A stretch of DNA of 64,000 nucleotides from Kofleriaceae bacterium (GTDB taxonomy: Bacteria > Myxococcota_A > Polyangia > Haliangiales > Haliangiaceae), in contig JANTGM010000016.1 in the NCBI GenBank assembly GCA_024762925.1, positions 1-64,000 of the forward strand, read 5' to 3'. Positions within the stretch are counted from its first letter, which is position 1. Each line of letters begins with the position of its first letter. Below the pieces are notes generated by a model. That model was not told where the DNA came from and did not search any database. It saw only the letters and a program-made list of their open reading frames with translations. Below are positions 1,552 to 6,118 of the stretch, piece after piece. The position numbers were made by a program, and so were the translations under genes.

Positions 1552-2127
1552 CTATGTCTTGGTCGCTCCGCTCGGGGAAACTTCATATCCAACTCTTCGG
1601 TTGTCTAAGAAAAACTCCTGAGCGGCACGCGCAAGGTACGCTGACGTAATCGCAATGAAGGGCAGGAACTCTCCGCTCTCGCAGGTGGCAGAGCCTGGCT
1701 CTCCCTCGCTGTCGATTGCGAAGTTCTCGTCCCAAACAACGCGTCCGAATGATCCGTCGGGAGCTAGGGCACCGTGCAAGCACGGAACGTTGTGCTTGCG
1801 GACCCACTCTTGAACGAGCGAGCGAGATGTCGCATTGTCCAGACAGTCGATTACAAGATCTCCACCCAATAGCGCATCTTGATTGTCTTTAGATAGCTTG
1901 TGCGAGATTGTCTTAATCTTAGCTCCAAAGAGCATCTGCATGCTCTGTGCGAGAGATGCGACCTTCTTCTTGCCAACGCCTGGTTTGCTGTGAAACTGCG
2001 AGTAGACGTTCTTCTGTTCAACGCGGTCAAAGTCGATTGCCCGAATCGCCACATCCTCGCTCCGGAGGAACTGGACGACGTGCGACCCAAGAGCGCCGAC
2101 TCCTACGACGGTTATGTTTTTAGTCAT
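1552..2127 (-). CDS. Minimal ThiF/MoeB-type E1 (UBL-activating) enzyme
   Basis: A 191-residue Rossmann protein of the ThiF/MoeB/HesA E1 family, which adenylates the C-terminal glycine of ubiquitin-like proteins. Visible motifs are the glycine loop G9-V-G-A-L-G14, D32-F-D34 with N40 (nucleotide ribose and phosphate contacts), K53-K55, and the C95-L-D97-N98 motif. Cys149 in a TCESGE context, followed by a hydrophobic helix, is the best candidate catalytic Cys. The Arg that normally follows the Asn (N-x-x-R-Q) is Ser43 here. It is shorter than typical ThiF proteins (about 240-250 aa) and lacks a rhodanese domain. The start is fixed by AAAGGAGG 5-6 nt before ATG. It lies 41 nt downstream of the UBL candidate and is followed at once by the tRNA array. 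The family assignment is firm; the substrate is inferred from context. Confidence 0.85.
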   Translation of the reverse strand: MTKNITVVGVGALGSHVVQFLRSEDVAIRAIDFDRVEQKNVYSQFHSKPGVGKKKVASLAQSMQMLFGAKIKTISHKLSKDNQDALLGGDLVIDCLDNATSRSLVQEWVRKHNVPCLHGALAPDGSFGRVVWDENFAIDSEGEPGSATCESGEFLPFIAITSAYLARAAQEFFLDNRRVGYEVSPSGATKT

Positions 2128-2168: not shown

Positions 2169-2435
2169 TTAGCCAAAGGGGGTTTTTGGACGCAGCTGAA
2201 TCAGATTGTACGGACGGTCCCGAGTGGCTCGAAATCGGTCCACCACAAATCCGTGGAAGGTCGCGGATGGTGATGGGCGAATCCCTGGGATGCTCCCATT
2301 GCGAACGGCCTCTGTTGCCCATGCCCGAATGTCGCCATCACTTGCATGTGTGTAAACAGAGTCTGGAAGATCTCCGTTCTGTCCTGCATAGGTGACGTTT
2401 ACCCGTGCTTCATCGTTTCGATATTGGTTGTGCAT
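2169..2435 (-). CDS. Candidate ubiquitin-like (beta-grasp) protein with C-terminal Gly
   Basis: An 88-residue protein. The predicted layout fits a beta-grasp fold: strand R11-Y16, strand about L23-A31, helix D35-N46, strand F60-F68, strand Y76-L81, then a flexible tail R82-P-K-T-P-F-G88. The reading frame stops directly after Gly88, so no maturation protease would be needed, as in ThiS, MoaD and similar E1 substrates. GGAG lies 8 nt before ATG. It sits directly upstream of the E1 and downstream of the unknown gene at 2493-3425. I cannot match the sequence to a named family; the UBL call rests on size, terminal Gly, predicted strand/helix order and E1 adjacency. An alternative is an unrelated small adaptor. 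Confidence 0.6.
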   Translation of the reverse strand: MHNQYRNDEARVNVTYAGQNGDLPDSVYTHASDGDIRAWATEAVRNGSIPGIRPSPSATFHGFVVDRFRATRDRPYNLIQLRPKTPFG

Positions 2436-2492
2436 TGTCGTTTCTCCGTAGTCGAGTTTGGTTGTTTAAGAATAGACCGCACGAGAAGGCCC

Positions 2493-3425
2493 TCAGGCAT
2501 GCCTGTAGACAACCAGGACGCCTTCTCGGTCGGCTTGACGGATTACAGCGGGGAGTGACTCCAAGGTGAAGAATGTGTCGCCCTTTTCGCCGGTTGTTTC
2601 ATCGGTGAGGCAAACGCCCGCGTCGATGATGCGCATCTGCGAGTCGCAAACGCACTCATAGCGTCGACCGTCGAGACGGTATCGCACGACACTCTCACCT
2701 CTGCGCGCGCTTCGTGTATCGAGCAGCTCGGCGCCACCAATGGCAAGTGCAGCCGCTGCGGCGGTGTGGAAGTCCACACGGGCCATATCACGACGACCTG
2801 CGCCGTTTCCGAGCGACTCGACCAAGCGCTTGCGCTCTTCTTCTCTTTCGCGCCTTGCAGTTTCTTCGGCTCGAAGTCGCTGCAGTTCCCAACGCCGCTC
2901 CTCTGCCTTGTCGCGTTCGTAACACTCAAGATCGAATGCTGCTTGTAGCGATGGGATAACGCCCTTGACGTTCTGTACAGAAGTATTCCTATCCAAGAAC
3001 GCCGAGAGAACATCGTCCTCAGGGCCCAAGGGAAATGCCAGTCCGCGATATACGAGCTGGCCGTGTTGGCGCAGAGCACCAACTTCGATGCGCGAGAACC
3101 GCTCAAGCCCTTCTTCAAGAAGATGAACTTGCTTGAAACGCCCAGTCCACTGGTGCTCGAGCTGTCCGGCTTGCGCGTGGTCGGGAACAAAGCGATTTCC
3201 TACAAGGAAGCCGGTTTGTACCCAGCCAAGCGATTCCGGCGCGGGCATTGCGGCTTGGGTGATTGATGCAGCACGCGGCTCAAGTCGAAACAGGTACCAG
3301 TCGTGCTCCTCGGGCAAGTCGCCCTTGATCGTTCTGGTTCGTCCACCGGAGTGGAGAGACCGTCCTCCCATCCAAGGAGCGACGATTGCCTGTTCCTCTT
3401 CTGTGATTAGATCTCTCCATCCCAT
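2493..3425 (-). CDS. Unknown 310-aa protein in Ro60/UBL/E1 operon
   Basis: I do not recognise this protein. The N-terminal part (about 1-175) is globular and mixed. A charged segment at about 174-215, rich in Glu and Arg, should form a long helix or coiled coil. The C-terminal part (about 220-310) begins with an Ala-rich helix and contains a conserved-looking Cys cluster: YECVCD followed by IDAGVCL, then GDTFFTLESLP. There is no signal peptide or membrane segment. AGGA lies 6 nt before ATG. It is 18 nt downstream of the TROVE gene and 57 nt upstream of the UBL candidate, so co-transcription is likely. It could be a conjugation target, an E2-like carrier using one of the clustered Cys, or an RNA-binding partner; none of these is demonstrated. 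Confidence 0.8.
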   Translation of the reverse strand: MGWRDLITEEEQAIVAPWMGGRSLHSGGRTRTIKGDLPEEHDWYLFRLEPRAASITQAAMPAPESLGWVQTGFLVGNRFVPDHAQAGQLEHQWTGRFKQVHLLEEGLERFSRIEVGALRQHGQLVYRGLAFPLGPEDDVLSAFLDRNTSVQNVKGVIPSLQAAFDLECYERDKAEERRWELQRLRAEETARREREEERKRLVESLGNGAGRRDMARVDFHTAAAAALAIGGAELLDTRSARRGESVVRYRLDGRRYECVCDSQMRIIDAGVCLTDETTGEKGDTFFTLESLPAVIRQADREGVLVVYRHA

Positions 3426-3443: not shown

Positions 3444-5339
3444 TTACGCCCAGGCGGGCTTCACAAGCAGGTCAGTCTTGAGGATTGTCTCAACAAGGCT
3501 CACGCGCTTTGGTGCTCGGCGACCAGAAAAGTTCTGGCCGACCGGTGTTGATGCAACGAGGTTGCGGATGGTTCTCGGGATTGCGTAGGGATCCTCGAAC
3601 GTATCCTCCTCGACCATGAAGCAAGGAACTCCAAGCTCAGCGGCCGTACCGCGAACAGCAGAGTAGTCATATCCCTGACGATATCGACCACTAGCAGCAC
3701 CGGTGCTAGCCGTTGTCTTTACAAATCCGAAAGCCATTGGGGCAAGCCCCGACTCGCGAACTTCCTTTGTGAAGGTTCCTCGCTCCTCTTCATCGCCTAC
3801 GAAGAAGAAGAGAACATCCGCGCCGTCCTTTGGCTTTGCGCTCTTGAGCGCGCGGATACCCGCTCCGTGTGACGTTCCGCCACCCGCACGGATTCCGCGG
3901 AAGGCATTCGCTACGCCAGCCGCAGATGCGTGCTTGATTTCGACAGTTCGTCCCTGTGTGTTGAAGGTCGCAATGTGAAGCTGCTCAAGTGTGAAGCCCT
4001 GAAGGAACTTTGAGACGTAGCTCTTTGCTGCTTCGATTGCTCCCTGCATAGACGCCGAGATGTCCACAAAAACGTAGATCTCGATGTCCTTGGCGACTTC
4101 AGCGACCGCCTTCTTCATTGCACCGTCGCTGGCTTTCTCAAGCTCCTCCTTCACTGCCTGTGACCGCACCTTGCGTGCGATGTTGACAGCTCGCATGTCC
4201 TCGGCAGCCTTGACCGCGAGAGTCCAGCGATCACGAACGTCCTGAACGTCAAGAAGGCCAAGGTCCTCGAGAGTCGGAGTGAGGATGACGATGTCCTTGT
4301 CGGAGAGAGCTCGTGCTTCCATGGCCGCAGCCACGATTGCGCGAGTCACACCAACATCCTTGGGAAGAAGGCCTACGATGCGCTTCCAGTTCGGCTTCTC
4401 TGCGACAATCTTCTCACAGATGTCCGCTTCGGTGAGTCCACCCCAAGTCTCAGCTGCAGAAACCACGTCTCCGACCGCGAGCGATCGGCGGCCATCTTCT
4501 GCCTGCTTCTGCTTCCATCGCAGAACCTCGAAGAACTTTGGCGTGAGTGGCTTGTAGCCAACTCGACGTGCAAGTTCCATCACGGTTGTGCGGAAGCCGG
4601 CCTTCACCAGCCCCTCGAGCATTCTTGGGTTTTTTTCGCGGTAGCGGAGCCACTTTTCAACAGCCTTTGGCCAACGACCGTAGAAGGCATGTCGAGTAGA
4701 GCGGCCGAATCCGAGATCCCGATTGATCTTGGCAACGCCAGGAAGGCTAAGAATTTCTCGTACGCGCAGAAGAAGCTTTGGGTTTAGATCCTTCTTGTCC
4801 TTGCGGCGCAGAAGAATCATCGCCTCACCGACATTGCGGAAGTCTTCATCGCAGAAGAGAGCTTTGCCGCCTTCCACTACCGGGTCTCCTTTGCGGGACT
4901 GCACAAGCATAAAGGCTGCCAGCACGACTTTCAGATCGCGGTGTTCCTCGGCAAACGCGAAGGATGCCCATCGGGCAGCGAACTCGTTGTCAAGCTTCCA
5001 GACCTCAGCGACTTGTGAGTAGAGCCAGGTGGCAACTTCGGGGAAGATGCCGGCCGCGCGATATTGCCCGACGGTGGTTCCGTTGTTCTGTACTCGGCCG
5101 TCGCTAAGAAGAATACCAAGCCGAACACGCGTCGACTTTGCGCCCTGTTTGACTTGCTTGTAGACAATCGGAGTGCCGTTCTCGACCTTGTGGGTAACGG
5201 GAATCCAACGCAGACCGAGATTTTGGCGGTTATCTGTCAGCACAACGCCAGGTCGGTTGTGGACCATGTGGTCGGTATAGGTAAGGAGGGCCTGGACGAT
5301 CGTTTCGGCAGGCCCGAGTGTGTTTGCATCAGTTGTCAT
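3444..5339 (-). CDS. rsr: Ro60/Rsr-like TROVE-vWA RNA-binding protein
   Basis: A 631-residue protein with the Ro60 architecture: an N-terminal alpha-helical TROVE/HEAT-like region (about 1-400) and a C-terminal von Willebrand A domain (about 420-590). The MIDAS motif is visible as DISAS near residue 427, with GGGTSHG and the later VGDEEE supplying further metal ligands. Ro60 family proteins bind misfolded RNAs and Y RNAs and act in RNA quality control. It is longer than human Ro60 (538 aa). The start is set at the ATG with GGAGAGG 6 nt upstream; the open frame extends 26 codons further but without an RBS. It is flanked by tRNA-His/Phe upstream and by the unknown/UBL/E1 genes downstream, all on the same strand. 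No rtcB is nearby. Confidence 0.88.
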   Translation of the reverse strand: MTTDANTLGPAETIVQALLTYTDHMVHNRPGVVLTDNRQNLGLRWIPVTHKVENGTPIVYKQVKQGAKSTRVRLGILLSDGRVQNNGTTVGQYRAAGIFPEVATWLYSQVAEVWKLDNEFAARWASFAFAEEHRDLKVVLAAFMLVQSRKGDPVVEGGKALFCDEDFRNVGEAMILLRRKDKKDLNPKLLLRVREILSLPGVAKINRDLGFGRSTRHAFYGRWPKAVEKWLRYREKNPRMLEGLVKAGFRTTVMELARRVGYKPLTPKFFEVLRWKQKQAEDGRRSLAVGDVVSAAETWGGLTEADICEKIVAEKPNWKRIVGLLPKDVGVTRAIVAAAMEARALSDKDIVILTPTLEDLGLLDVQDVRDRWTLAVKAAEDMRAVNIARKVRSQAVKEELEKASDGAMKKAVAEVAKDIEIYVFVDISASMQGAIEAAKSYVSKFLQGFTLEQLHIATFNTQGRTVEIKHASAAGVANAFRGIRAGGGTSHGAGIRALKSAKPKDGADVLFFFVGDEEERGTFTKEVRESGLAPMAFGFVKTTASTGAASGRYRQGYDYSAVRGTAAELGVPCFMVEEDTFEDPYAIPRTIRNLVASTPVGQNFSGRRAPKRVSLVETILKTDLLVKPAWA

Positions 5340-5421
5340 TGGACCTCTCCAAGTGGTGTGTGTGCGGCCGTTTCTCGCAAAGACCATTCTTCGCGGTTCT
5401 CGAGCCTTGTGGGGCAATTGG

Positions 5422-5493
5422 GGTCATTGAGGAGAATCGAACTCCTGTCAATCGGATCACAACCGATGGCTCTACCATTGAGCTACAACAACC
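5422..5493 (-). tRNA. tRNA-His(GTG)
   Basis: The acceptor GTTGTTG pairs with CAATGAC using G-U wobbles. G-1 opposite discriminator C73 is the histidine identity pair. The D-stem is GCTC/GAGC, the anticodon arm is ATCGG-TTGTGAT-CCGAT (GTG), and the T-arm is AGGAG-TTCGATT-CTCCT. CCA is not encoded. It lies 82 nt upstream of the TROVE start codon, in the same direction, so it could be carried on the same primary transcript. Confidence 0.92.
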
Positions 5494-5496
5494 ATG

Positions 5497-5572
5497 TGGT
5501 GCCTCAGCTTCGAATCGAACGAAGTTCTTCCGGGCTTCAACCAGACGCACTGACCTGTAGTGCTACCGAGGC
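5497..5572 (-). tRNA. tRNA-Phe(GAA)
   Basis: The acceptor GCCTCGG pairs with CTGAGGC and is followed by an encoded ACCA. The D-stem is GCAC/GTGC, the anticodon arm is TCTGG-TTGAAGC-CCGGA (GAA), and the T-arm is CTTCG-TTCGATT-CGAAG. It is a regular cloverleaf, separated from tRNA-His by three bases. Confidence 0.92.
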
Positions 5573-5661
5573 AATTTGAAACCGGGCACCAGAATATTCC
5601 GGCACCCAATTTCAATGCGCCTGGCTTTGCCAAACGCGAGTCGTTCGCTTCCTTCCGGAAG

Positions 5662-5750
5662 CTAGTGTGCGATCCAAAATGTTTGACCGGCCCTCGCTTG
5701 GTTTCTCACCTTCTGGGCGCTTCGCTCTGAGTTGCTCGTCGGTCACGTAT
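5662..5750 (+). repeat. Dispersed repeat, inverted copy D
   Basis: It starts CTAGTGTGCGATCC and continues AAAATGTTTGACCGG, matching the opening of copy B read on the other strand (CTAGTGTGCAGATC, then AAATGATTGACCGG). Together with copy B it forms a large imperfect inverted repeat centred near 5745. The apparent 81-codon minus-strand frame across it (5612-5857) is a by-product of the repeat. Confidence 0.6.
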
Positions 5751-5836
5751 CTCGATACGCTCCACTCCTTGCGCCTTGCCAGAAAACGAGCTCCCGGCGC
5801 GATCTTCCGGTCAATCATTTCGATCTGCACACTAGT
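5739..5836 (-). repeat. Dispersed repeat, copy B
   Basis: Read on the minus strand it runs from CTAGTGTGCAGATC through GGGAGCTCGTTTTCTGG and CAAGGCGCAAGG to GTGACCGACGAGC. The order and spacing match copies at 1-98 and 36494-36598. It lies between tRNA-Phe and tRNA-Gln in the Ro60/E1 island. Confidence 0.65.
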
Positions 5837-5874
5837 CGCGTCCTGCCGCCAGGACACGGGTTTGTTTGTCCTAA

Positions 5875-5953
5875 GCTAGCGCCAGAGAATTCTTGCGCCG
5901 CTAGCAAATGGGGCACAACTGGCCCCCGTAATGGGGACGTCGCATGTCCCCAT
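5875..5953 (-). ncRNA. Three consecutive hairpins between tRNA-Phe and tRNA-Gln
   Basis: This short stretch holds a near-palindrome, GCTAGCG ... CGCTAGC around GAGAATTC (about 5875-5905), a GGGGC/GCCCC stem (5910-5926), and a perfect 8-bp stem ATGGGGAC/GTCCCCAT with a 7-nt loop (5931-5953). No reading frame is present. It is transcribed, if at all, within the tRNA-Gln to tRNA-Phe interval upstream of the TROVE gene. It is a candidate structured RNA, attenuator or processing signal. Confidence 0.35.
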
Positions 5954-6044
5954 TCATCGTTATGCTATTCAATTGTCAAATCTGCTATCCGTGCAACGCC
6001 GTGAGCGCGTCAATCAAGACGGCTGGATACGAACGCCATAGACA

Positions 6045-6118
6045 TGGTTGGGAAGAGAGGATTCGAACCTCCATGGACCGGTTCAGAGCCGGGCATCCTG
6101 CCATTGGATGACTCCCCA
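6045..6118 (-). tRNA. tRNA-Gln(CTG)
   Basis: The acceptor TGGGGAG pairs with CTTCCCA and is followed by an encoded ACCA. The D-stem is ATCC/GGAT with a GG loop. The anticodon loop is CTCTGAA (CTG) within a CCGG/CCGG stem, and the T-arm is GGAGG-TTCGAAT-CCTCT. The TGGGG 5' end is typical of tRNA-Gln. It is the first recognisable element of the minus-strand island. Confidence 0.92.

Follow-up and report, generated by a model that had tools for sequence, protein, structure and literature searches.

Does the small protein encoded directly ahead of a minimal E1 enzyme in this myxobacterial contig serve as the substrate of that enzyme? We favor, at a probability of roughly 85%, the explanation that the 88-residue protein is a β-grasp ubiquitin-like modifier (UBL) and a substrate of the adjacent E1, and that a JAB peptidase gene and the modifier's C-terminal tail were lost in this lineage.

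The modifier-like protein and the adjoining E1

Our window is the whole 64-kb stretch of DNA analyzed. It belongs to a 6.8-Mb Myxococcota assembly with Kofleriaceae MAGs among its near relatives, and carries four co-oriented minus-strand genes (RO, X, UBL and E1) between two groups of tRNA genes (Table 1). All nine tRNA genes found by ARAGORN and Rfam RF00005 flank these four genes, and none was detected in the other 58 kb. The remaining contig is chromosomal in look when inspected by eye, with kinase-like, transport-type and lipoprotein-like genes; our inference is that a chromosomal contig carries a mobile-type module at its edge. The initial annotation had described an 88-residue product ending R-P-K-T-P-F-G with the stop right after Gly, and had placed it directly ahead of an E1; the ORF at 2169–2435 on the minus strand confirms the former (ATG start, TAA stop), and for the latter we find the E1 ATG at 2127, which is 41 nt beyond the stop codon of UBL, an order that recurs in relatives.

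Table 1. Features of the tRNA-flanked locus, with positions in the 64-kb window
Feature	Position	Strand	Evidence
Six tRNA genes past E1: Gly, Ser, Lys, Lys, Tyr, one with unsure anticodon	203..1081	-	ARAGORN, Rfam RF00005
E1, minimal MoeB/ThiF-type adenylating enzyme, 191 aa, invariant Cys149 (codon 1681-1683)	1552..2127	-	PF00899, MoeB match, 90/90 homologues
UBL, 88 aa, predicted β-grasp, encoded C-terminal Gly88 (codon 2172-2174)	2169..2435	-	ORF, AF2, core Gly in 118 loci
57-bp gap, site of the JAB gene in most compact-operon relatives; JAB lost in the window	2436..2492	.	
X, 310 aa, predicted tandem OB folds, long helix and C-terminal α-β4-Cys-α domain, invariant Cys272 (codon 2610-2612)	2493..3425	-	51-row alignment, AF2, VIA-align
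RO, α-helical N-terminal region and C-terminal vWA domain with MIDAS motif, Ro60-like architecture	3444..5339	-	
Three tRNA genes ahead of RO: His, Phe, Gln	5419..6118	-	ARAGORN, Rfam RF00005

The AlphaFold2 model of UBL, built with 82 sequences, has a mean pLDDT of 93.9 and a pTM of 0.83. Its elements (strands 9–16 and 19–22, helix 33–46, strands 63–68 and 77–83, then the tail) match the strand-strand-helix-strand-strand order first guessed from the letters, and the protein modeled alone, as had been proposed as a check, gives a confident structure that is β-grasp-like rather than of another fold. Foldseek returned a ranked list consisting mainly of β-grasp proteins (the UBL domains of FAF1 and UBLCP1, PB1, the EccD ubiquitin-like domain, the PI3K Ras-binding domain and Smt3), with no match at E < 0.001, and VIA-align matched PB1, NLE1-UBL, GB1 and SUMO1 only weakly, at Z ≤ 4.9. 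We found no convincing family match for UBL in Pfam, NCBIfam, PHROGs or PADLOC, and its alignment yielded chance matches only in a PDB profile search. The predicted model supports a divergent β-grasp fold at the level of topology; it does not support close kinship.

E1 scores 69.1 bits against ThiF (PF00899; cut-off 28.1), and its profile finds MoeB as the best solved structure (E = 1.7e-19), followed by Uba4 and ThiF. The columns of the ATP-site motifs are conserved, and Cys149, present in 90 of 90 homologues, aligns with TCVEAG of MoeB. The frame begins at the residue aligned with about residue 30 of MoeB, so that the N-terminal 30 residues of MoeB are missing. The arginine finger of MoeB sits in these 30 residues; judged from the alignment, E1 lacks an N-terminal arginine finger.

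Relatives, the terminal glycine and the loss of JAB

Relatives were collected from near genomes (6), viral contigs (13 loci) and genome contigs (71), with 65 further viral loci added via E1. The UBL family occurs in ∼118 loci, on Myxococcota chromosomes and on jumbo-phage contigs, and because protein and C-terminal Gly alike are found again in so many loci, we do not regard them as chance. UBL lies ahead of E1 in 48 of the 50 viral loci found via E1 (L162–L211), and the gene order RO-X-JAB-UBL-E1 is common to dozens of phage and bacterial loci, often within tRNA arrays. The UBL-E1 pair belongs to a five-gene module made of the vWA protein RO, the OB-fold/Cys protein X, JAB, UBL and E1. JAB and UBL are not always adjacent: several loci of Myxococcus, Corallococcus and Archangium have ∼3–7 kb of other genes between the two. 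Most bacterial carriers are Myxococcota, and a few bins belong to Actinomycetota, Planctomycetota and Acidobacteriota; a record labeled Comamonas sp. KCTC 72670 (L054) branches within Myxococcus in the E1 tree and is either mislabeled or contaminated, or reflects a recent transfer. At another locus (L042), one UBL is followed by two E1 copies downstream, at +2169 and +3687.

Nearest to the window among the relatives is a viral contig of 199,636 bases (UBL 72% and E1 70% identical), in which JAB is present, reading ...HSHPGGGMPQPSHTD..., and UBL ends ...PFGK. More distant versions of RO, X and E1 are found in a 595-kb uncultured phage (L026, 1895–8576), where JAB is present, and in the Dolichospermum plasmid pAfl69 (L027, 3–4349), where none was detected; no clear UBL was found in either. 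Our literature search, whose cover was incomplete so that a prior mention is not excluded, returned no paper joining vWA, UBL, E1, JAB and tRNA arrays, and the five-gene module carried by giant phages and myxobacteria is apparently undescribed.

The UBL core ends in RP[KE]xx[FYL]G, and its last residue is Gly in 118 of 118 proteins after removal of repeats; behind it we find 53 different tails of 0–61 residues. The 71 genome loci were found with two seed patterns, one of which contained RPK..FG, so that their Gly conservation is due in part to selection; the viral loci, found by N-terminal/helix or E1 patterns, show the same conservation. Tails of ∼50–61 residues occur in six loci (L041, L204, L209, L211, L052 and L025); some are highly acidic or charged and may function before cleavage. 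It is doubtful that UBL is merely a never-activated subunit of E1 or of an RO/X complex, with its C terminus acting as a binding motif. The protein is small and lies beside E1, and RPKxPFG is longer and more conserved than the usual UBL tail, as such a partner might have it, but the Gly is fixed while the residues that follow it vary, its neighbor is an E1 with an invariant catalytic-type Cys, and JAB and the tail are lost together.

This last link is seen when all loci of known JAB status are considered. JAB and a tail occur together in 71 of these, JAB without a tail in 14, neither in 4, and a tail without JAB in none (Fisher p = 0.0013, uncorrected for kinship; 0.0008 in an earlier subset). 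The JAB proteins themselves have an intact JAMM motif, with E4, H49, H51, P52, S59 and D62 invariant in 44 rows, corresponding to the Glu, HxHP and SxxD zinc site, and those of L059 and L026 pass the Prok-JAB (PF14464) cut-off. In the four JAB-less loci (the window, L050, L051 and L113), UBL stops at the core Gly, and a JAB-family profile finds no match in any of the four whole genomes, with three JAB-bearing control genomes positive. The absence of a JAB gene stated initially thus holds at the locus and extends, for the module's JAB family, to the entire genome of the window. The suggestion that UBL is a divergent modifier needing no processing is likewise supported, since relatives with JAB are mostly tailed and all four JAB-less loci stop at Gly. 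The only Prok-JAB match of the window genome lies elsewhere (L036, contig G000:C17, ∼3.5–5.3 kb into the contig), in a CysO/CysM/Mec+-like cluster, and probably serves another modifier because its neighbors look like CysO, CysM and Mec+. This apparent cysteine-synthesis cluster, with a CysO-like protein ending GGVA and CysM and Mec+ look-alikes, would constitute a second UBL/JAB pair.

JAB absence arises three times independently on the E1 tree (L050, which has no E1, is not on the tree). In nearly every random pairing the tail is missing along with JAB; with only three pairs, significance is out of reach (sign test p = 0.25). In one such case L113 has no JAB and a UBL ending PFG, and its sister L111 has JAB and a UBL ending PFGCT. 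Neither the window's 57-bp gap nor a 292-bp gap in L050 showed a JAB remnant. Because the ancestral module has JAB, its absence in the window is a secondary loss, and loss of the tail together with JAB is the pattern expected if JAB exposes the Gly. The link is one-way only, as 14 JAB-positive loci are also tailless; their retention of JAB suggests a second role, which we infer is probably removal of the modifier from targets.

Could the loss of JAB instead mark a decaying, inactive phage-derived copy? The module lies at a contig end, and its closest kin are phage copies, not copies from the same bacterial family. We nevertheless consider decay improbable: the frames of RO, X, UBL and E1 are each open and intact and keep conserved catalytic residues, and two other JAB-less lineages retain an intact set with a tailless UBL.

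Partner proteins and the link to tRNA arrays

In X, Cys272 is invariant across 51 homologues and lies in the motif DAGICL. The AlphaFold2 model (pLDDT 89.5) predicts a β-rich N-terminal half, a long helix and a C-terminal α-β4-Cys-α domain. VIA-align returns tandem-OB matches for the N-terminal half at Z 5 to 5.5 (the interdomain tandem OB of Mpa at Z 5.5; RNase II/R, eIF5A and IF1 lower) and lists RWD-type kinetochore folds at Z ∼4. The order of elements in the C-terminal domain is E2-like, and by eye DAGICL resembles the E2 motif GxICL, but an assignment of X as an E2 is not supported by profile comparison: a PDB profile search gave nothing. The C-terminal part, not folded alone, reaches an hhalign probability of 0.3% against UBC, in a comparison with three E2s, one of them checked against the PDB. 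Too few E2 and PRTRC examples from Myxococcota were found for a profile comparison.

RO contains VWA_2 in 38 of 38 homologues, with invariant MIDAS residues Asp426, Ser428 and Ser430. Our first guess that RO is a TROVE protein (PF05731) is not borne out by profile, as none of the 38 homologues matches and the window genome has no match. The helical part of RO aligns co-linearly with TROVE at an hhalign probability of 20% (E = 0.0011). True TROVE/Ro60 genes are present at separate loci in same-family genomes (L121–L140); in several of these, upstream frames read like translated tRNA genes.

Phage loci hold up to 34 tRNA genes in a 16-kb locus. The bacterial loci contain 211 tRNA genes in 0.93 Mb, and a tRNA gene is within reach at only 27 of 71 loci, so the tRNA link may mark the location of the module rather than its job. 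Across 54 neighborhoods, only HNH-endonuclease-like and unidentified ORF families recur beyond the five genes. In many phage arrays (L046, L162 and others), the tRNA genes and module genes are interspersed with genes for HNH endonucleases.

These neighborhoods also bear on whether UBL is a sulfur carrier, in which the Gly88 acyl-adenylate would be converted to a thiocarboxylate for tRNA thiolation or other sulfur transfer, as in ThiS, MoaD, Urm1 and TtuB. We regard this as unlikely, although the order of E1 matches among solved structures (MoeB, Uba4, ThiF) and a single-domain E1 adjoining tRNA arrays would fit. The 54 neighborhoods contain no conserved extra partner such as a sulfurtransferase or tRNA-modification gene, E1 ends after the adenylation domain without a rhodanese domain, and vWA and OB-fold partners are not suggestive of metabolism.

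A putative conjugation module and its counterparts

We return to UBL as a modifier activated by E1. What we observe is the sequence, the predicted fold, the conserved operon, the intact JAMM and E1 motifs and the links of JAB to the tail and of the module to tRNA arrays; E1-UBL binding, adenylation, the thioester, conjugation, targets and benefit are inferred only. With ATP, E1 would adenylate Gly88 and take UBL onto its invariant Cys149, and the activated UBL would pass to a target, possibly by way of X and its invariant Cys272. In most relatives, the JAMM peptidase JAB would cut a short modifier tail at the Gly and would probably also strip the modifier from targets. In the window lineage, UBL would be made activation-ready, with no module-borne peptidase to reverse the modification. 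Likely targets would be either the module's own RNA-binding complex (RO and X) or RNA-damaging proteins encountered by this complex, with the tRNA array as the beneficiary. Among possible functions, we rank modification of an RNA-binding complex tied to tRNA arrays as likeliest and sulfur transfer lower, and the most economical reading that we infer is a UBL conjugation module acting on or from an RNA-binding complex serving the tRNA array. A more specific scenario remains tentative: a jumbo-phage conjugation system in tRNA arrays, with X as an RNA-binding minimal new E2 and RO as a ring-like RNA sensor, might tag proteins on damaged or structured RNA (for example host tRNA-cleaving defense nucleases) while the array replaces tRNAs, and Myxococcota would have taken it into their chromosomes.

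Among known systems, one point of reference is operon type 6d, which we take to be the PRTRC systems. Of the JAB/E1/UBL/E2 operons described by Iyer, Burroughs and Aravind in 2006, this type is nearest in make-up, sharing a small stand-alone UBL with a conserved C-terminal Gly, separate E1-like and JAB proteins, a further conserved-Cys protein and a sporadic spread (PMC1779556). In contrast, our UBL has no PRTRC_C match and E1 reaches only 38.7 bits against PRTRC_ThiF (cut-off 144.75); the module's JAB has only ∼120–136 aa, E2 similarity of its Cys protein is not shown, and it comes with a vWA protein and tRNA arrays. With ThiS/ThiF, MoaD/MoeB and Urm1/Uba4 the module shares a β-grasp protein with a free C-terminal Gly and a MoeB-type E1, activation being inferred in our case; it differs by a single Gly in RPKxPFG, by JAB and two further conserved genes, and by lacking rhodanese or cofactor genes. 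Bil (BilABCD), type II CBASS and 6A-MBL likewise combine an E1 and a JAB peptidase with a modifier or target and are mobile (PMC11354881, PMC1779556, PMC10097602), but have E1-E2 fusions or other partners, whereas our E1 consists of a single 191-aa domain without E2 fusion; of the PADLOC E1-E2 models, only the E1 part matches the module, which has no CD-NTase or recognizable E2. RO resembles Ro60 (TROVE-vWA) in its helical region, C-terminal vWA domain and adjoining tRNA genes, but lacks a TROVE match. FtsH-type vWA-MoxR systems, too, join a vWA protein with UBL, E1 and JAB genes; in those systems, however, the UBL forms a fusion with E2 and EAD1 domains, and caspase-like effectors are encoded (PMC7159879), neither of which is seen in our module.

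Five-gene UBL operons lying beside tRNA arrays in jumbo phages would connect ubiquitin-like tagging with RNA surveillance, or with a conflict between phage and host over tRNAs. The family is missing from the curated libraries searched yet present in cultivable Myxococcus and Corallococcus, which makes it testable, and the lineages without JAB amount to natural experiments in which modifier maturation can be told apart from modifier removal. For most tRNA arrays of jumbo phages the function is unsettled, and the module gives a handle on it.
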